A stretch of 64,000 bases of DNA, from positions 38,270 to 102,269 of the forward strand of contig UZAN01039595.1 in NCBI GenBank assembly GCA_900618425.1, written 5' to 3'. The notes below the pieces were generated by a model, which worked only from the letters and a program-made list of their open reading frames with translations, had not been told where the DNA came from and searched no databases. This document shows positions 4,641 through 61,486 of this stretch, piece by piece (position 1 is the first letter of the stretch; every line of letters begins with the position of its first letter). The DNA is from Echinostoma caproni (Eukaryota; Platyhelminthes; Trematoda; Plagiorchiida; Echinostomatidae). The position numbers and the translations under genes were made by a program.

Positions 4641-6530
4641 CACAATTGTTTTCAATTTATACTGTTGTTTATCTCAGATGGACTCCAATAAAAACTTTCG
4701 GACAGAGTGAAATCGTCGACGGGCAATACCTTGATCAAATAGTTATGTTCCAAACTCTATCAGCAATGCGTGATCCTGTTCGTCAGAAGTATATCTTAGA
4801 TCAATCAACCTTTCATTTCAATATAAACTATGCTGTATTAACGAAGAACCATTTACCTCACTTAAAGTTGATAAAAGACTTAAGTATTTTAATAACGTTA
4901 ACTAGATATAGGGCTCGACTGGAGGGAATAGATCACACGTGAACATCACATTAAGTTGAACGAGAAAAGTGATAACCAACGATGATGAAGAGACCTTTTA
5001 CATTTGGTATTAACCAAACTATTACCAGAAGATAATCACGTAGATTTCGCGGTGATTAGGAGCTGCTGTCTGTGAATTTAAAACCGGTGTGTATACTACA
5101 AACTCACCAGATTTCAACCTAGTGGAATATGTACGAGATTGTTCGGATACAAAGAATACGGAAGGCGAGGTTTCTTCTAGTCTACCCAGAGTGAAACGGG
5201 CCCCACGTTGAAAGCGGAACTAGATTCCAGTATTTTTCCTAAATTAACTTTCTCACCAGAGCTATAAAAACCGGTGGAGTAAAAACAGGAAGTCTATGCG
5301 TTGCTTTGCTTATAATAGACCTTCATTAACACAAAGTGCTTCATGTTTATTTTAGTTCTGCATCAAAAAGACTTCATTGCACAGATGCAAGGATAGGAGT
5401 CACCCACCGATGTTAATCGAACTTAGCACAATCGGGGAGATGGCAGATTTGCCCTAGATGGATTGCGATTGGCATTGTGGAACAGCATTTTGTATCAGAT
5501 GGCCCAAACAAGAGGCCGTTTGCACCTGTATTACATATCGAGCAGTCCGGCATTCCTCTTTTGGATTTGCGTACTCAGACGGTGAATACGGTAAACAATT
5601 TTTCCAATGATACAAAAATCTCGCATTTCATGTACAACGTGAGTACATTTTTTCCTACTCTGTGACTGTGCGTTTCGGTTTTCGAAGCACGTGCATGGTA
5701 AACGGCTATTGGCATTTCTCTTCTCTTTTTTACTCGTATTTTCCAACGCGTGTGTTATCCTTACTGGCAACCGAGCGAAGTGTCAGTGATAGCTTGCAAT
5801 AATCAGTCCATTTTGCTTGGCTGATGGACCAGACTGCATATTTATCCATATCATTATTCTGTTTTGGTGTGTTGAAATATGGTGTAGCAACGATGAGGAG
5901 GAGGCTGTCGAAGCCAAGCAACATATTGCTCGTGAATTTCGTCTGAGATTAACGATCAACATTTTAAAAGGCCGACTGGTATTCCGCAAGAAGGAAATGA
6001 AATGATTGGGGCTTTAAGCAAGCAACCTTTTGGTATACACGAACGAAACGAAAGAGGTCTTCGTGGTCCACTACAGTTTACCGGAATGCCATTATCGGCT
6101 GGATGCGGGTTCTTGTGTAATGCACCGGTTAACAATAGTAATGTTGATTACGCGGTTACCGATCGGACCCTGCGTGGTAATGTTTAGATTCAGTGTATCT
6201 GGAAAATAATTTTTATGCCGAAAGAGAACAATCACACGTAGAATACAATTGAGCATGACTCACCATAACCAGTGTCGTAGTCCTCCAAAACCTAATTGAT
6301 ACTTGTCATTAGAAGAGCGATAACATACATGCCAGCGTGAGATAAGCCAAAATTCAGCTAGCTTTAGTGTATTGCATTTGATGAGGAACGCAAACTGACA
6401 TCTTCTCGACAACAAACGTAAATGGTGTAATTTTGTTATTCAGGAGTTTTATATTTTTGGACTTCTAAGATATCTTTGCAAACGGTTGCTTTGGCAAATT
6501 GAAGTTTCATATTGAGATTCTGAAACGTTC
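4641..6530. other. Non-coding stretch, no gene recognised
   Basis: Short open frames of up to 116 codons occur (4,592-4,942 plus is the longest), but none shows a recognisable domain, splice pattern or repeat partner in the window. I treat them as chance frames. Confidence 0.4.
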
Positions 6531-6533
6531 ATT

Positions 6534-6785
6534 AGCCTCGGTGGGATTGAAACCCACGCATGGACGCCTCTCACAGTTATTTGCGTGCATGCGCTATACA
6601 AAAGCGTAGGTGACGTCCATGCGTGGATTTGAATCTCGCCGAGCCTACGGAATTTTTCACAATCTCAGTATAAGATATCTTTTCTTTAAGATCCTCTGAA
6701 GAGCCTTCACTGATGCATCCACATGTGCAAGGCAGTTGAACGAACCGAATTTCATTCACCTCCAGTTATACCGAAGTGAATTCAT
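6534..6785 (+). repeat. tRNA-derived SINE (family B) with palindromic head
   Basis: At 6,538-6,575 a minus-orientation B-box segment (GGGATTGAAACCC) is followed about 60 bp later by its inverted partner ending GGATTTGAATCTCGCCGAG. Together they make a fold-back of about 120 bp. The plus-oriented tail, GGAATTTTTCACAATCTC, matches the family B fragment at about 37.44-37.51 kb. The head sequence with GACGTCCATGC is shared with the copy at about 36.97-37.24 kb. This looks like two copies inserted head to head, or a rearranged one. Confidence 0.7.
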
Positions 6786-27122: not shown

Positions 27123-28985
27123 TGGTAATGAACAAACTCCTACAACGTTTTCATCACATTTGTTTCTCTCAATGTTTCGTTTTTCCAGCCTCGTTCACAC
27201 TATTGAATATAGTATTGCCCCACATCGGACTCACAATATATAATTCATAACCCACTCGTGCATTTGCTTTAATTAGTCACATGTCGTTAAAATGTATCAT
27301 TTCGCGATTTTCACCATGGTGCATCAATCGTAAAATAAGAAAGTCACACTAGAAAACGTAAGTATAATTAATTTACTAATATTACTCATAGACTTTATAC
27401 AGGTATTCACTTGCCTCTTGTTCATGTAACATTTGCCCTTCTTCATTTTTGAGCACTGGAGGCAGTCGCTTTAGCATGGAGTCCACCAAGTTGACTGCCC
27501 AACAGAAGTTGCCAATTTCCTCTAATACACCCCACTCCGTAAACACTGACGACCAACGACGAGGCAGCCAACTTATCCCTGGTACTGATACTGGAAACAG
27601 TTTTAAATCAAATTAAAATCCCAGCGGCTGCGCGGTAATCCAATGAATTTGACATTCAACTTGACACCTCCAGGAACTGTGTAAGTGTAAAACAATAATA
27701 TTTCATTAGGTCTACCCATTTTTTCCACCATGCTCAACTATGAAGTTGTACCAACCTTCATGTGTGAACATTAAGCGTTGCGCATATGTATCGATAGAGT
27801 AGTAATTACCGAAAACGTCCCTTATTATTTTAAAAACTGTTTGTGATATCCAGAGTGGTTTGCCAGATCACCAATAACAAGGCATTCGGTATATACTTTC
27901 GTAATAACGCGCCTGGCGGGATGAATATTTACTTCTTTTAACAGGTAAAACGAATTTTATCACAAAACTGAGTAGAACAGCACCCATCACATGCTGAATT
28001 ACTCATTGTCCACCAGTGAGATATACCTATTGCTAAATGGATGGGTGACGCGACTTGAATTTGTTGGTAGAATCGATACTTGTTATGCTTTGTTGGACCT
28101 TCAATAACGGCTTCAAATCACGTGGCCTCAGATGCACTTTAAATTGAGCCCTCTTTTTCCAAACGAAGGCATCCGGAGAAGATGACTAACCAGCCCGGAC
28201 TATCCTTCTTATTGGTTGTGTGCAACTCTTCTCCGCTGCGATCGAATACGACCTTCGTTTTGCTTTGATATGATCGGCATTTCTTTCTCAGTTTATGTCG
28301 TGATGGAGAAATGTCGTTGAATATCTTATAAATTGCACTTATGTTCACATCGGAACAGCTCCCCGAAACACCAAATGAACGATCGGATATATGTGCCTCT
28401 GGATCAAGTCTTCTCCAGGCTTCAATTATATGCCAAACACGTTCGCATGGTTCATACGGTTTGGGTATGATGACAGAAGAACGAACCGCACATCTCGTGG
28501 TCAACTTTCGAAGATCAACTTGGATGATTCTCGGGCCATGTTTTCAGTTCTTCCAGTAGTGTAGATAACGCATGAGCAGTTTATAGCCAAATAATTAATC
28601 AGTTTATTTAAGCCAGAATATTTTCAATAATTTGCTGAATTACTGTCTACTCAATGAAAAGAGATAAGGAATTTATAATGCGTATACTGAACTTAGTAAA
28701 CATTCTAATGGAACAGTAATAATTTATTGAGAATAATGAACTCGCCTGCTAACTTGCTAAAAATATTTTTGAAGCCTCAGCTGTAACTCTTAACATACAA
28801 ATTAGACCGCGACACTCAAAGTTGCTTAAATGCAAACGGTGATAGAAGAGTATTAGGAACCTATGTGAGGGAGATAAGACCAGTAATAAATACACTTTAG
28901 CCCTATCCATCAATATACAAGTNACAAGTGTGATATTGGAGACTGAAATGTAATTCCAAAATGGGAGTGATGATGCAGCTGTTTG

Positions 28986-28988
<3 letters not shown>
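27122..28988 (-). mobile_element. Tc1/mariner transposon, copy 1 (decayed)
   Basis: About 1.87 kb aligned along its length with copies 2 and 3 in this window. Family ends are inverted repeats of about 25 bp (CAGGTRTTGATCAAACYCG inward); here both ends are degraded (left GGTAATGAACAAACTCC, right GCAGCTGTTTGAT) and run straight into TA microsatellites, as expected for an element that targets TA. The minus strand holds transposase traces, described separately. Copy 1 keeps about 195 bp (about 28,033-28,226) that copy 2 lacks. A single N with duplicated flanks sits at 28,923 near the right end. Confidence 0.85.
27376..28560 (-). pseudogene. Tc1/mariner transposase pseudogene (copy 1)
   Basis: Reading 5' to 3' on the minus strand: an open stretch of about 120 codons (28,504-28,139) includes a helix-turn-helix-like part (DRSFGVSGSCSDVNISAIYK). 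A second-helix segment follows in another frame (RPRDLKPLL). Next is a first catalytic block near 27,745 (FTHEGW here, FFTDE-type in other copies). The last catalytic block reads LPRSRWDFNLI followed by a stop where the family has PDLNPIE. The C-terminus has the Tc1 signature NLVDSMLKRLPPVLK and ends KVYE before a stop. Transposase would cut and paste the element at TA sites. The stops, frameshifts and lost catalytic residues show it is inactive. Confidence 0.75.
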
Positions 28989-37515: not shown

Positions 37516-38381
37516 GTTTACCAAACATCAATTTGACCAAAAACGGGTCACACAAACTTCGATGTATCAATCTGTAGATGAATCGCTACGAACATATAGA
37601 TGATGGTATATTTGGACTATGGAAATGTAATGAATCCGGCGGAACTTACCAATTAAAATTACCTAGTAATTATAGAGAAATACCACATTATTTTAGACAG
37701 ACATTGTTAGGAGTTAAGTAGTATTGAAGATCATTATCAATGCGTCGATCTTCCGATGAAAAAATCTGATGGCATCTTGGACCATAAATTCCCATCGGAA
37801 TCGTTTAGTCGACTGCAACATAAATGTTTTTAATCGCCAAAGATGCTCTCCCGTTCCCCTCCCTCTGCTGATAAAACCACTTGTGTTAACCTGGATCGTA
37901 CCCCACTGGCTCTGTGCCTCGTCCACTGATTTTTACTGGTTTATTACAAAAGGATATACGTTGGATGTCTAGATCACACAAACGTATATCCGTGTGTAGT
38001 TTTGAGCCAAAACTCACGTGATTCATCAGACTCCCTCCGAACACATCAAAGCTTACGATAGAATGTTTGTTTGAATGTTTCACAAACTATTACCTGACTC
38101 CTGTCACGCATTTGACTACGCTTTGTCCAAATGTATTTCAATCACTTCTACTGGTTCCTCATGCACAAAAACGTTCCAGCACTCACAAAAGCATTTCACT
38201 CTTTCGTTATTCACACGAGATCCATGGATGGAACGGATCTCACTGAACACCTTGGGCATCGTGCTCATGATTATTGAGGAAATTAGCTTGTCTTAGCCAC
38301 GACGAGTGAAAAACCGAAACACAAGGCGTCAGTGACTCTTCGGTTATCTATATTGCTCGCTTTTTAACCAACTCGAGAGGT

Positions 38382-39233
38382 TTGTTCCAGAATTTGTTCA
38401 CAGCTTTGAGGAGCACCCGTAAATCTAGTGTTTTCATACTTATCGTTATATATCTGGGGTATTTAGCAGACGACCTGCCTTGCACTAGATGGTGTTTTAA
38501 AGGAATTTCAGCAACAGGCTTGGCGTGTTTGTCCTGTTTTATTGTAATACCACGAGCTAACGCAGAAGATCAGGAGAATATCAATATTTTGATAACAGAT
38601 ACCAATGACTCAAAGGTTATGTGGGTAAATGATTCAAAAACAATCCGTGTACTAAAAGAAGACGTTCCCATTGGCACAACTACACGAGGAAAAACGGAAC
38701 GAATGTTCAGTGTAGTTTCGCTGAAAGCAAAATTCACCAAAATGTATCTGACCGACTTCGAAACCCAACTTCCCTTTGTTTACGCAACTATCAGTCCTCT
38801 GGACTTGCCAAAATTTTGATAAATTTGCAAATTTCAAATTCCACCAATACTTGGAATCCTGACACCGTTGCGTCGTTCTAAGTTGGTTGTCAGATTGATA
38901 CGAACACAATGCGTTTACGATGGACAACCATTTGTCCGCACAAGACATATTGGATACCACGAGTCACAGAAAGCAACAGAGAACAATTCAGCATTGAGCA
39001 TTATAAACAACTAGAGCCGGTAAACAACTCTCGTGGTCGAGAAGCTTAGACGAACGGTGGTATCAGCAGTTCACACTTTCAGAACTTCCACTTACCTCCA
39101 GATCGTTTCAAATACTAACATTTTGAATGAATAACTGAATGACTACCTGGGAGATTGCACCACAACGCCCAAGATGGAACGGCGGATTGAAAAGTGCCTT
39201 TTTCGAAATACACGTGAGTCTTTTCACACGTGA
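38382..39233 (+). pseudogene. Unrecognised dispersed protein-coding family, copy B (pseudogene)
   Basis: The first 145 codons (38,382-38,819) are open, starting with a hydrophobic N-terminal region (SSVFILIVIYLGYLAD) that could be a membrane or signal segment. The same frame then continues through paired stops TGA TAA and three further stops (TAG, TAA, TAA) to a final TGA at 39,231-39,233. From about 38,865 it aligns with copy A at 35.4-35.9 kb (YDGQPFVRTRHIGYHESQKA; VVEKLRRTVV; MERRIEKCLFRNTRESF). Remaining in one frame across five stops suggests loss by point mutation. The two copies are inverted and about 3.8 kb apart. Function unknown; no reverse transcriptase or transposase motif seen. 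Confidence 0.6.
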
Positions 39234-39757: not shown

Positions 39758-40589
39758 TAAAGGTGTTGATCAAACTCGTGCAACATCACTCTCATTTTGG
39801 AAATACATTTCAGTCTCCAGTATCATACTTTGATGTTGATGCCTATGGTTAAAGTATATTTATTACTGAGTTTATCTCCCACTTTTATGCCTTTAGTTCT
39901 CTTCTATCATCATCTGAATTAGCGTGACTTGAGGCGTTGCGATCAAATTTGTAGTAGTTCGAACGTTACGGCTCAGATTTCGAAAATATTTTAAGCAAAT
40001 CAGCAGGCGAGTTCATTTTTCTCAATAAATTGTTACTGTTCCATTAGAATGTTTACTAAGTTCAGTATGCGTATTATAAATTCCTTATCTCTTTTCATTG
40101 AGTAGACAGTAGTTCAGCAAATTATTGAAAATATTCTGGCTTAAATAAACTGATTAATTATTTGGCTATAAACTGCTCATGCGTTATCTACACTACTGGA
40201 AGAACTGAAAACATGGCCCGAGAATCATCCAAGTTGATCTTCGAAAGTTGACCATGAGGTGTGCGGTTCGTTGAATAAGCGTTTTCTTCTGTCATCATAC
40301 CCAAACCATGCGAACGTGTTTGGCATATAATTGAAGCCTGGAGAAGACTTGATCCAGAGGCACATATATCCGATCGTTCATTTGGTGTTTCGGGGAGCTG
40401 TTCCGATGTGAACATAAGTGCAATTTATAAGATATTCAACGACATTTCTCCATCACGACATAAACTGAGGAAGAAATGCCGATCATATCAAAGCAAAACG
40501 AAGGTCGTATTCGATCGCAGCGGAGAAGGGTTGCATAATAGGTATATCTCACTGGTGGACAATGAGTAATTCAGCATGTGGTGAGAGCT

Positions 40590-42204
40590 CCCAGCCAGAA
40601 AAAAAACGTGAATATGACGCGCGACCTCTCGCGTTCTGCTTCGTTAGACGTTTTGCACAAAAGTTCGCGAATTAGCAACAGGCTTTTTGCACGTTTTTTC
40701 CTGTCGCCCAAGAAACGAACGTCAAGTATCCATTTGTTTCAGTCGCGGTTTTCTCACTCCCCTCTTTACTCGTAAAATACCTACCACGCTTATTTCTGAT
40801 CTACATAAGTCCTATAACTCCAACTTAACTGGTGTGCCTATATTTGAACCTACCTACTGTCGAATAATCGTTCGACTACTCAAGACCTATCCATTTACAA
40901 TATATACGTTTCAGTAAAAGGCCCAATAATATAGTATAGTAAATTTATTATACAGAAGCATAATAAATGTAAAACAATGAAAGTGGCTCTTCATCCATGC
41001 TTGTGAATTAACTTCTTCAACATACGAGTTCCTTCTTGATAATTGCATTCACTGAACTGATGACGATTAATGGCATCTACAAAATGAAAATATAAAAGAA
41101 TATTAGTGTAAATCAGAGAAGTTGTAAAAAATATAAGCGGGAGCTAACATGAAGTTTATGCTCGATTTACATAATGTGTTCATTATAAACAATCCCTTAG
41201 TTATGCACCATAACTACCTTACTTAATAAAGAAAACTACAGAAAACTACCGGGAACACACGACCAACGTTTCATCACGAGATATCTCTACATAAAAGCTA
41301 ATCGGCATTTTAACTTACCCATGACAGCTTCTGTTGTGCAAAATGACGACAATGCGTGTTTCCCGCGGATACCACTACAATTCAATCCACTGTTAATGAA
41401 GACAAAGACATTCACTTATGTTCATTCATAAATGAAATGTGCACTAAAATCACCTTTCATGTTGGATATCAATTGTTGTTGAGTGAGCATAAAAACGACT
41501 TATTTAAGCTGAATATCTCAATAATTGGCTAAATTCTGTAGGCATGAGCATAAAATGTCTCACATTGATGCTTGGCAATGCTTATCAGATGTAATTGGCG
41601 TGTGATCGGAAGAACTGTTTTTATGTAATAGAACGACATTGTCTGAGATGAACCACTTTTGGTGCACTGTGGCATTATCGGCGAATTCAACAATAAAATA
41701 CAACTAAAATAAAGTTAAAGTTACGGGAGGATTCACATTCATCAACGCATAATGACTATTAAAAGGTATTCGTAATAAGTTCTACAAGGATACGTCTATT
41801 TGAATAACTGACACATGTACGTTTTCATTTGTGGTATCTAAATGTTAACCGTTAGCTACATGCATGAATGAATTATAATGAACAATAATGTGGTACGGTA
41901 GCATCTTGAGGCCTTACTTTTCTAAACATATGTAGAGGGCGCCGATGATTAGCCGTACGAAAACCAATATGGTGGACAAAGAAACTGCTCGTCAAAACTA
42001 AGCGTCAATCAAAACAAGGAGGAACATTTTGTCCATGAAATTAAAATTGAAGAAAGCAATTTAACATTTGTAAAAATATATCGATTTATAATATAGTTCT
42101 GCACAGCTAAAATGGAGAAGAGACTAGTTTTGGAAAAAAACGCAAAAATCGGAGCGTATTGAGAGCGAAAAGGCGCGCCGGCATGTTGGCAGGGCTGATC
42201 TAAG
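40590..42204. mobile_element. 1,615-bp insertion in Tc1/mariner copy 2, flanked by GAGCT
   Basis: It is recognised because the flanking sequences are contiguous in copy 1. GAGCT occurs at 40,585-40,589 and again at 42,205-42,209, which would be a 5-bp target-site duplication. The ends (CCCAGCCAG left; GCTGATCTAAG right) show no clear terminal inverted repeat and no poly(A) tail, so its class is unknown. It carries the spliced gene described below. Confidence 0.55.
40944..41929 (-). CDS. Compact four-exon gene, small protein of unknown function (97 codons)
   Basis: Proposed exons on the minus strand: 41,929-41,918 (ATG, MFRK), 41,703-41,564, 41,374-41,319 and 41,076-40,991 (TGA). Introns are 214, 189 and 242 bp. 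All have GT-AG ends with good donors (GTAAGG, GTGAGA, GTAAGT), and the phases (0, 2, 1) fit exactly. Coding length is 294 nt including the stop. An AATAAA signal lies 42 nt after the stop (complement at 40,944-40,949). The protein includes YFIVEFADNATVHQKWF, then IGIRGKHALSSFCTTEAV, then RHQFSECNYQEGTRMLKKL. I do not recognise the family. The N-terminal pattern and the GxRGKxAL segment faintly recall small BEN-domain proteins, but that is speculation. The 12-nt first exon is the least certain; exons 2-4 support each other. It lies in an insertion inside a dead transposon, yet its frame is intact. Confidence 0.5.
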
Positions 42205-43009
42205 GAGCTAGTTTTCTAATGAATTTCGTTTTACCTATTAAGAGAAGTAAATATTCATCCCGCCAGTTTTTACGGAAGTGAATACTGAGTACCTTGCTAT
42301 TGGTCTCCTGTACGCAACAATGCTGCGCATCGCAAAATGTTTTGCACTGATGAGGGAGTTTTTCTGTAATTGTTACTCTCTAAAGGCAATCGCGGAAGTC
42401 GTGTTTTTCAAAGATGAAGGTTGGCATATCATCTCGCTTGGGGTTGATGGATGGGTCAGGTTCAATTTGGAATTCATTCAATTACCGCGCAGACGCTGGG
42501 ATTTTAATTTCATTGCAAACTGTTCCTAGTATCAGACACATGGATAAGTCAGCTGTTTCGACATTGGTCGTCAATTATTATGGAGCGGGTTGTATTAGAG
42601 GAAACTGGAAAATTCTGTTCGGCAGTCAACTTGGTGCACTCCACACTAAAGCGACTACCTCCAGTGCTCAAAAATGAAGAAGGGCAAATGGAGCATGGAC
42701 GAGATAAAAGTGCAATTCGTATACGAAGACTATGAGTGATTTTTATCAATAAATTCTGGTTACGTTTTCTACGGTGACTTTTTTATTTCATAACTTGTGC
42801 ATCAGCAACCATCGTCAAGATTGTGAAATCGTACATTTTACTAGCAAGTGGGAGCAAAAACACAAGTGGATATTATGTCAGATATGTTGTGTCTGATGTG
42901 AGGCAATATAATATTTATGCCCATGAATATGAGCCTTGAACTACGAAGCATTGAGAGGAACAAAGGTGACGAAAATCAGGATGTAGCACGTGTTTCATCA
43001 ACATCTGTA

Positions 43010-43589: not shown

Positions 43590-44690
43590 GTAGTCGGACC
43601 AAGTAGGGTACAGGTATTTTTATAAATGTTAATCCGAGAGGGTAGCTGTCGAGATGAGGAGCGTGTGGACAGATGGGAAAGACAAGACGATAGATCAGGG
43701 TGTAGTGGATGAAGAAGGTGATCTAGAATCGTATGAGCAAATTTGAAACAAAGCTGATGTGACCATCAATGAGATCTATGATTAATAAATCGATTGGGAT
43801 TAATGATGCACGACTGATTACCACCAAACCTCGGTGAATTGAAGTCTTGTTTTAAAAGACCGGGAAACACTACAGGGGAACAACAGAGTAGAATGGGTAA
43901 AACGTATTGATGAACGAAGGATGACAGGACTGACTGGGGGGTTCTGAGTTGCCTGAGTTTGCGTAATTGAAAAGACAAGCGTCTCAGTTTTCCCATACAG
44001 GTGTAAACATGTGCAAACCACTGAATACTGCTGTCGATGGTGATACCTAGGTACTTGACTGAGGTCATTCTGGATACAGGTTTACCGTTCAAGGTAGCAG
44101 AGTTCGTTGGAAATGCGGAGCGGGAAAGACTGAAAATACACTCTACGCGCTTAGATATGTTAAGACTGAGACCAGATTGGTCAGAAAACTGTTGGATGTG
44201 GGAAAGGTTTTGGGTAAAAGAAAGAAATTCTGAAGGAGACGACACTGTCTGACACAAAACAACGTCATCAGCATACTTTTGGACGTGTGCAGGGAGTGGA
44301 ACCGAAAGACCACTAATAAAGGCAGAAGGAGAAGGAACAGCACCTGGAAGAAAACCAGAGTTATTACCAAGAGGTTTTGATGTCCTTTTTCCTGTTTTGA
44401 TGCACTGGACCCTCTGTGTGAAATAGTCAGCAAGCTATGAGAACAGTTTTTTTTGGAGTGCCCAAAGATTCAAGTCTGAAATAAAGGGATGATCGGGAAA
44501 CAGAATGGAATGCAGTTAAGAAAAACACAAGCGACAGACTTGGCCGAATTGTTCAATGACTTGCTAACAAAGTGCATTATGGTGGACACGGTATCCAATG
44601 TAGATCTGTTTGGTTTACATGCACACTGAAGGGGGTCGTCAGGAATTGTGGTAACTGACTGCAACCGACTCAGGATGGCTTTTTCCTTTA
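43590..44690 (-). pseudogene. CR1/Jockey-type LINE reverse transcriptase remnant
   Basis: The minus strand gives consecutive blocks of a non-LTR retrotransposon reverse transcriptase: DPLQCACKPNRSTLDTVSTI (44.6 kb), then a decayed GxPQGAVLSP-like block, then the catalytic YADD (complement at 44,264-44,275, context KYADDVVLCQ). A 163-codon open frame (44,257-43,766) follows with VKYLGITIDSSIQWFAH and LRKLRQL. The C-terminal motif HPLHPDLSSC ... STRSSSRQLPS appears in another frame near 43.65 kb. The enzyme would copy LINE RNA at the target site. At least three frameshifts make it non-functional, and there is no endonuclease or ORF1 upstream, so it is 5'-truncated. Confidence 0.9.
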
Positions 44691-59860: not shown

Positions 59861-60179
59861 ATGTACAGGTATTGATCAAACCCGTGCAATACCCTGATTT
59901 CCATCACATTTGTTCCTTCCGAGGCCGGTTTCTCTTAGTCTCATTCACAGGGATGGAATATGAAGTTGTCCCGCATCCATCAAACGCTAGATATCTGTAA
60001 GAATATACACTTTGCTTCTTTTAGTCGAATGTCATGAAAATGTACGACTTCTCAATACTGACGATGTTTGCTGACGCATCAGTTGTAAAATAAGAAGTCA
60101 CGGTGACAAACAGAATAAGTATTTCAAATGGGAATTCATCCTGTTTATTACAAATAAAGCGTGAACTAAACAGATCGAA

Positions 60180-60320
60180 AGCAGTGAACAGCTGTTTCGA
60201 CCTGGTTGGGCCTCATCAGAAGTGCGAATCCATCGACCCGATTGGGGTTCGAACCCGGGACTACACAGGTAGATCGAAGGCATTCTATCCACTACGCTAC
60301 CGGTCTGATCAACTGCCAGG
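60180..60320 (-). repeat. tRNA-derived SINE (family A), nested in Tc1/mariner copy 3
   Basis: On the minus strand: A box TAGCGTAGTGGATA (complement at 60,286-60,299), B box GGGTTCGAACCCC (complement at 60,244-60,256), then the body TGATGAGGCCCAACCAGG and CGAAACAGCTGTTC. This is the best copy of family A in the window. Its position interrupts sequence that is contiguous in Tc1/mariner copy 1, so it inserted after the transposon. Confidence 0.85.
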
Positions 60321-60384
60321 TGACAATTATTTATTAATCAAAATGATCCATTGAACTGACACAAAGTTTTTACTTTTATCTCGT

Positions 60385-60960
60385 GCGTTTTGATTTTTCC
60401 TTCTTTATTTTTGAACACTGAAAGCAGTCGCTTTTGCAAGCAGTCCACCAAGTTGACTGCTCAAAACCCTTTGCTAGTTTCCTCTAAGACACCCTAACCA
60501 CTGTCAAGGCAGCTAACCTCTTCTTGTTCCAATTCAGAGAAAAGTGTTCAATTACATTCAGATCCCACCCACCGGAGGGTAAATTCTACCTTGGAATTGA
60601 TTCCTTCAGAACCGGGATAAGTGGGGCAAAATAATGTTTAATGACACATAATAGTATCTACCACAAACCTCAAGGGAGAAGATGTGCTACATTCATCTGT
60701 GAAAAAAACTGACTTCTGCGAATGCATTTTCAGAGTGACAGTTATCGAAAACCTCCCTTATGATTGCAAGATATTTTTGCGACTTCCAGGTTGATGTGTA
60801 CAGGAGACTAACAGCAAGGCACTCGGTATTTACTTCCCTTCCAACACGTTGCACCAAATGCTAACACCACAAGACGACGCATTATCCATCTCCACTATGA
60901 CTTTGGAAGATCAAATTTCATTTTTCCTGTGCAAATATATGTTTCATTTGTTTCAGTACG
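60385..60960 (-). pseudogene. Tc1/mariner transposase pseudogene (copy 3), C-terminal part
   Basis: The minus strand retains, in order, a block aligned with FFTDE-type catalytic block 1 (EVSFFTDEC, near 60,720), the last catalytic block as DLNVIEHFSLNW (near 60,555, with the glutamate kept), and AVNLVDCLQKRL near 60,445. These lie in different frames with stops between. DLNVIEH is the closest match in the window to the PDLNPIEH signature of Tc1 transposases and fixes the superfamily. Confidence 0.75.
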
Positions 60961-61486
60961 AGGGATAATGCAGGTGTAGTTTGTTGCATCCATTTATTGA
61001 AGCTAGAATATTTTTATTAATTTGCTTACTTACTGTGCACTGAATGAATGGAGAAAAGCAATTTAGCATACGTGTACTCAACTTAATAAACAGTCTCATG
61101 AAACAGGAATCACATTTATTAGAAGGAATGCGGTTCCATGCCGCTTGGCATAAAATATTTTCGAAATCTCAGCCTGTAACTGTCGAACTACTCAAGGTCG
61201 AGCAAATTCAAACGGTGACAGAAGAGAACTAGGAACATAGAAATGTGAGATAAAATCAGGACTAAGTACATTTTACCCATAGCCATCAACATACAAGTAT
61301 GATACTGGAGAGTGAAATGTAGTTCCAAAAGGAGAGGGATATTGCACGAGTTTGATCAACACCTGTGGACCATTCAAAGACGGGATTCGGGGTAATTGTT
61401 CAAATGCAAACTTGGTTCAAATTTGCTCGGGCAGGATAACTGCGCCATTTCAAAGGTGTAGATAGAACCACTATCGAACTTGTTTC

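Follow-up and report, generated by a model that had tools for sequence, protein, structure and literature searches.

TnpA of the maize Spm/En transposon is a DNA-binding protein, and the Spm tnpA and tnpD genes share exons. In plant CACTA elements, DUF4218 occurs in the transposase open-reading frame, and subterminal repeats are a mark of these elements (PMC8978399). SmTRC1 is a CACTA relative described from Schistosoma mansoni, and animal TRC elements are marked by a terminal inverted repeat (TIR) starting with CCC and a 2-bp target duplication, seen there in 7 of 14 copies, and their transposases by motif I, the eumetazoan box A and CxxC (PMC1636069). The same paper describes a 2.3-kb deletion derivative of SmTRC1 and spliced products 3′ of the transposase, and it reports no detectable conservation with CACTA elements outside Transposase_21 (PMC1636069). 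DUF4806, a domain of unknown function, is described as a BEN subtype (PMC11075544) and is among the domains enriched in Hydra, in a table that also lists transposase domains (PMC7642931). Genes with this domain occur in animal genomes, zebrafish and Hydra providing examples (PMC11075544, PMC7642931).

In a 64,000-nucleotide stretch of the Echinostoma caproni genome (contig UZAN01039595.1; hereafter the window), a first-pass annotation had marked an intact four-exon mini-gene within an insertion in a dead transposon. We conclude, with a probability of roughly 90%, that what had been marked is the second gene, now decayed, of a DNA transposon of the TRC (animal CACTA/EnSpm) type. A 1605-bp copy of the element with CCC-starting TIRs entered an older TIR transposon and duplicated a 2-bp target, and the four "exons" are the remains of a spliced gene after loss of a transposase-like gene, an exon-fusing deletion and the loss of an exon-pair unit. 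Loss of the transposase-like gene is common to the window's subfamily. Coordinates of the features are collected in Table 1.

Table 1 Features of the insertion and its host, in window positions
Feature	Position	Strand	Basis or remark
Dead TIR transposon serving as host (copy B), split by the insertion	about 39760..43007	-	TIRs, sister-copy comparison
Entire insertion (1605 bp), an internally deleted TRC/CACTA-like DNA transposon	40590..42194	-	both ends match other copies' ends
Target-site duplication AG, left copy	42195..42196	-	single AG in empty site of host copy A
Target-site duplication AG, right copy	40588..40589	-	flank comparison
5′ TIR CCCTGCCA	42187..42194	-	end comparison and genome pattern search
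3′ TIR TGGCTGGG (family TGGCAGGG)	40590..40597	-	end comparison
Exons of earlier model	41929-41918, 41703-41564, 41374-41319, 41076-40991	-	12/140/56/86 nt
Junction region; longer relatives have ~2.1 kb with transposase-like gene here	41872..41941	-	comparison with longer relatives
Earlier exon 1, not ancestral	41918..41929	-	ATG and GTAAGG donor private to window copy
Remnant of ancestral exon e2 (LYFIVEFADNATVHQKWFISDNVVLLH), 6-nt deletion	41621..41703	-	family alignment
What remains of ancestral exon e2d (SSDHTPITSDKHCQAS), joined in frame with e2	41564..41614	-	family alignment
Ancestral exon e3 (GLNCSGIRGKHALSSFCTTEAVM)	41319..41389	-	acceptor at 41390, not 41375
Spot of missing unit (e4a, e5), present in family	41115..41120	-	family alignment
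Ancestral last exon e6 (D-AINRHQFSECNYQEGTRMLKKLIHKHG)	40991..41076	-	family alignment
AATAAA	40944..40949	-	kept in 6 of 7 other well-aligned copies (not L012)

The minus-strand model (41929-40991) was checked letter by letter, and the claim of canonical splice sites with phases joining into 97 codons, followed by AATAAA, was borne out. The four exons end in TGA, and the introns of 214, 189 and 242 nt are all GT-AG with GTRAG donors. A better acceptor for exon 3 lies before 41389, 15 nt upstream of the earlier choice, where the family sequence is AACAG; it leaves the frame unchanged and gives 102 codons. The model was compared with dinucleotide-shuffled versions of its 1.2-kb sequence and with 336 other real segments. 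With strict sites and exactly three introns, at least 97 codons were reached in 6/3000 shuffles and 0/336 real segments, and with up to three introns plus AATAAA in 10/3000 and 1/336, the former scaling to ~0.35 such models over 64 kb and two strands. Loose donors raised these counts to 339/3000 and 66/336, and a scored gene model equalled that of the locus in only 2 of 2000 shuffles but in 6 of the 336 real segments. The amino-acid score of the joined frame was equalled by 418 of 5000 random stop-free frames. Judged on the locus sequence by itself, the model is only weakly beyond chance; the question was settled by copies elsewhere in the genome, which share four of the six splice sites and the AATAAA.

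These copies were found in 426.5 Mb of genome sequence (12,689 contigs), where the 986-nt segment gave 88 DNA matches, the first being itself and the other 87 being 69-88% identical, with several falling at one and the same place. Copies were fetched from twenty places and then from nineteen more. Of the first twenty, 14 show similarity from window 42187-42197 onward and 8 show it down to 40586-40602; the remaining copies are cut or deleted at those ends. A search for the ends of the insertion inside the window only did not find them; it was the copies elsewhere that revealed them. Both ends are present in nine of the 16 sequences examined for them, the window copy included, and all nine have a TIR with a CCC core (CCCTGCCA...TGGCTGGG in the window, CCCTGCCA...TGGCAGGG or close variants in the others). 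Identical 2-bp flanks stand beside these ends in eight of the nine, AG/AG in the window, where an empty site is also available; the flanks of L010 are not identical, though both its ends are present, and those of the long copy L067 do not match. Allowing three mismatches or fewer, the TIR-end pattern was found 46 times in the genome and its reversed control not at all. Since the TIR is short, little weight attaches to a simple alignment of the 90-bp ends: depending on the copy, 0-26 of 300 shuffles were as good for the eight copies so aligned. Seven copies (L010, L012, L013, L016, L017, L019 and L020) have element lengths of 2.1-2.3 kb, and L015, which contains an inserted sequence, measures 2.6 kb.

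The older host repeat is present in the window as three copies, A (27148-28987), B (about 43009-39761, reversed) and C (59864-61368). Terminal inverted repeats were found for B and C, with 0 of 500 shuffles as good for each, and copy A has no TIR left (277/500 shuffles as good). B has 1.6 kb that is absent from A, its sister copy with the empty site, and the earlier claim of an insertion inside a dead transposon therefore holds; copy C is deleted at that place. Copies A and B appear near-identical over several hundred bases (27979-28750 versus 40589-40050) and ~75% identical elsewhere, which looks as if it came from gene conversion or a common younger segment. Inside copy C, at 60152-60318, lies an inserted sequence with a tRNA-like B-box, GGTTCGAACCC, and a similar stretch occurs in L015; judged by eye, this insert is perhaps a tRNA-derived SINE.

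An alignment of nine sequences of the family separated what the window copy inherited from what it acquired. Four of the six splice sites of the model (exon 2 acceptor and donor, exon 3 donor, exon 4 acceptor) are family features and hence genuine, but the gene is no longer whole. None of the other aligned copies has the ATG or the GTAAGG of exon 1, reading AAAATGAAG at the donor position, and this exon falls on the scar of the lost transposase-like gene (window 41941-41872). Exon 2 is a deletion-fused chimera of e2 and the later exon e2d, whose donor GTGAGA is a family feature; a ~200-nt deletion in the window copy removed the continuation of e2 together with the following exon. The stop of e6 is TGA in the window copy and L019 and TAA in six other well-aligned copies. 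The word "intact" thus has to be withdrawn, since, relative to the family, this copy lacks the ancestral start region, the central part of exon 2 and an exon-pair unit. The frame is free of stops partly by inheritance and partly by luck, as both the fusion and the lost unit kept phase, and the window copy probably makes no working protein. As to the structure of the relatives, e3/e4a and e5/e6 in L010-L019 are a tandem duplication of the last exon pair in the window's subfamily; in a sister subfamily (L022-L026) the last exon pair seems single and the frame opens with ATG at the e2 acceptor.

Searched as protein, the genome gave 139 matches at 33-98% identity, the 98% match being the source copy. 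The window product had no match in Pfam, PDB, a set of 5.8 billion proteins, or viral and prokaryote contigs, and there was no Rfam match. A reverse-transcriptase control query drew just two metagenome proteins from the same protein set, indicating that this set says little about the present animal. Neither the window product nor the peptides of its subfamily reached a Pfam cut-off, the best DUF4806 match in the subfamily (12.2 bits, E 0.24, in one of nine members) being no better than chance matches to other families. In two divergent relatives, L050 and L049, exons joined by eye beforehand score 29.9 and 29.2 bits against DUF4806 (PF16064), whose cut-off is 25. A genome scan with PF16064, which is blind across introns, gave no match here or in any control genome. 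A profile of the nine copies found no homologue in the protein set, its best PDB match to Pumilio-type proteins (best E 0.0088) was taken as spurious, and one divergent relative gave nothing against PDB (best E 1.3). Exon e3 resembles the latter half of e5, and hence the C-terminal part of the DUF4806 domain; the window copy keeps e3 but lacks e5, which holds most of the domain.

These matches support the view that the second gene of the parent lineage encodes a DUF4806 protein, and they bear out the hunch in the first-pass annotation that the product is BEN-type, since DUF4806 is called a BEN subtype (PMC11075544). The likeness to animal DUF4806/BEN-type proteins lies in the above-cut-off domain match of the two divergent relatives; unlike those proteins, the gene of the window's family sits inside transposon terminal repeats, and the window copy retains just the last part of the domain. 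The parent-family protein is a probable DNA binder, its likely role, by analogy with tnpA of Spm, being to bind subterminal repeats.

At the position of the window's junction, three longer relatives (L067, L068 and L069) have ~2.1 kb of sequence with a long open frame, L067 measuring 6626 bp between its ends. This transposase-like gene forms a family itself, with 86 matches on 77 contigs. It had no match above threshold in Pfam, NCBIfam (two pieces) or PDB; an open relative, L070, was closest to DUF4218 (E 0.0069, below cut-off), and the third-position excess among three copies reached only p = 0.06. Across copies the motifs of TRC transposases were recovered, motif I in strict form in L070 and as its core in L067, box A in strict form in L036 and with a D-to-E change in L068 and L069, and CxxC in L067 and L069; no one copy has all three. 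The window copy lacks them, since its transposase-like gene is gone. Pieces of the decayed copies gave no match to Pfam Transposase_21.

Both the transposase-like gene and e5 were found on 18 contigs, and on 17 of them e5 lies downstream on the same strand, at a distance of 0.45-3.8 kb (1.57-2.05 kb on 12 of the 17); on contig C9947 the two are on opposite strands. A relative on C843 spans ~4.5 kb: its 5′ TIR word, at 106826, is perfect, its 3′-end similarity stops at about 111357, and box A, the transposase block, e5 and e6 lie between. Of ten divergent relatives checked, six have the 3′ TIR ~500 nt downstream of where e6 starts (at 496-534 nt in L057, L058, L060, L063, L064 and L066, not in L059, L061, L062 or L065). 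A one-mismatch TIR match anywhere in an 800-nt stretch arises in 27-64 of 300 shuffles, but the six are confined to that narrow range. L051 and L052 have a 3′ TIR at the matching place; upstream of L052 and L051, the short retrieved sequences (L055, L056), perhaps too short, contained no 5′ TIR. For L049 and L050, the 0.9-1.1 kb retrieved beyond the last exon contained no good 3′ TIR, L050 having two TIR matches with 2 mismatches in 10. CGCGAA/TTCGCG occurs 2-6 times in the last 160 bp of eight copies versus 0 or 1 in the middle; shuffles have at most 2, and the three copies with 2 repeats are therefore unremarkable by themselves.

This family resembles SmTRC1 and other animal TRC elements in its CCC-starting TIR and 2-bp target duplication, in a full length of ~4.5 kb (the C843 relative) with deletion derivatives of ~2.2 kb, in Transposase_21-type motif I, box A and CxxC, in having one or more spliced genes 3′ of the transposase, and in inserting into other repeats (PMC1636069). 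It differs in its TIR, ~8-11 bp here versus 54 bp in SmTRC1, and in its 3′ gene, which is recognisably DUF4806 in divergent relatives, whereas the SmTRC1 paper, comparing with CACTA elements, saw no conservation beyond Transposase_21 (PMC1636069). As compared here, a second, shorter spliced product beside the transposase and short subterminal repeats also recall tnpA of maize Spm/En, whereas DNA binding by the present protein is so far a prediction.

Selection was measured on the exons of eight aligned copies against their majority, L020 having been dropped as rearranged. Nonsynonymous, synonymous and stop changes numbered 193:84:13 versus 204:73:12 expected without selection (p = 0.33), and changes by codon position were 84/90/116 (p = 0.05). 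The window copy has 16 nonsynonymous changes, 7 synonymous changes and no stops, versus 16.2, 5.8 and 1.0 expected, so its ratio is neutral and shows no purifying selection after insertion; its changes by codon position, 2/7/14, include a third-position excess that the N:S ratio does not match. It differs by 11.4% from the majority of the others and is 80-82% identical to each of seven compared. The eight copies are nearly equidistant (80-85% identity), a pattern like that left after an old burst. None of the 39 other fetched copies keeps all six exon frames together with the splice dinucleotides; in L010 alone are the six scored exons all open, and there the splice dinucleotides are gone at three sites. 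Some of the 39 lie only partly within the fetched stretch and the sister subfamily seems by its structure to lack e5, so this count describes these copies, not the genome.

Between families the picture differs. In four separate pairs, e5 differences fall 84/61/141 on codon positions 1, 2 and 3 (p = 2e-8), versus flat distributions in two within-family pairs (9/8/11 and 5/8/9). It is this between-family excess at third positions that marks the ancestor as a selected gene, and the evidence supports a parent-lineage gene under purifying selection between families, on the same strand as the transposase-like gene and downstream of it. The comparison of synonymous and nonsynonymous change across copies, proposed in the first-pass annotation as a check, thus came out neutral within the family, and its suggestion of selection or recent arrival fails on the divergence of the window copy, its neutral ratio and its lost parts. 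Homologues full of stops, which it had named as evidence against the gene, do exist inside the family, but the homologues from divergent families point to a real ancestral gene.

Against this background, a functional spliced gene, recently arrived or selected, is highly improbable at this locus. Its open joined frame, its canonical sites and the 23 changes in its compared codons, none of them a stop and 14 at third positions, would suit such a gene, but a private exon 1, a fused exon 2, a missing unit, neutral substitution and the distance from the family majority do not. Equally hard to maintain is the reading that a spliced frame was simply drawable in an AT-rich non-coding stretch. Loose models of this size are common and the coding statistics are weak, as the counts above illustrate, but the exons and sites are common to many copies, and divergent families share the protein and show the third-position excess; chance is accordingly refuted for exons 2-4 and holds for exon 1.

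Another reading is that the transposon captured a fragment of a host DUF4806 gene (transduplication), so that the gene would not be the transposon's own. Animal genomes do contain DUF4806 genes, and the two relatives that pass the DUF4806 cut-off show no good 3′ TIR, but the gene is accompanied by the TIR in families with an e5 that shares just 41-67% of residues with the query, and order and strand are kept on nearly all contigs with both genes. We regard capture as improbable. A better candidate, and one compatible with a decayed TRC gene, is that these exons belong to the transposase gene as alternative 3′ exons rather than forming a separate gene. The shared strand and the typical spacing of about 1.6-2.0 kb would fit, and SmTRC1 makes such transcripts, represented by clones B1 and B4 (PMC1636069); in the sister subfamily, however, this frame starts with an ATG immediately after the acceptor (MYFIVEF in the majority of 7 copies), and we lean moderately away from this arrangement while considering it quite conceivable.

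For the decayed second gene of a TRC transposon, the history might run as follows. Deletion derivatives such as the window's subfamily would have been moved in trans by full-length relatives, and the DUF4806 protein may have been a DNA-binding accessory of transposition or transcription control, similar to TnpA, its target perhaps the CGCGAA/TTCGCG repeats clustered beside the 3′ end. A wider proposal, that TRC elements carry DUF4806 as a TnpA equivalent acting on subterminal CGCGAA and that the scattered animal DUF4806 genes are relics or domesticated copies, is speculative, and we offer it as somewhat doubtful. The literature searched, with most subscription journals outside its coverage, contained no description of a DUF4806/BEN gene in a TIR transposon, and the carriage of a conserved DUF4806 accessory gene by a TRC element may be new.

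The locus illustrates clearly how a transposon gene that has decayed and been rearranged can pass for an intact spliced one. Of greater importance is the parent family, in which DUF4806 stands next to a CACTA-type transposase, with signs that selection acted over a long time. This pairing is a testable source for orphan DUF4806/BEN genes, and it makes the DUF4806 protein a candidate accessory protein for animal CACTA elements.

Three further observations were made elsewhere in the window. A 169-aa open frame without a Pfam match lies on the plus strand at 38310-38819. On the minus strand at 43766-44434, a 222-aa open frame has a reverse-transcriptase match below the Pfam cut-off, its closest match in the protein set being 54% identical. 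At 6509-6671 there is a 163-bp imperfect palindrome with 72% identity to its own reverse complement.
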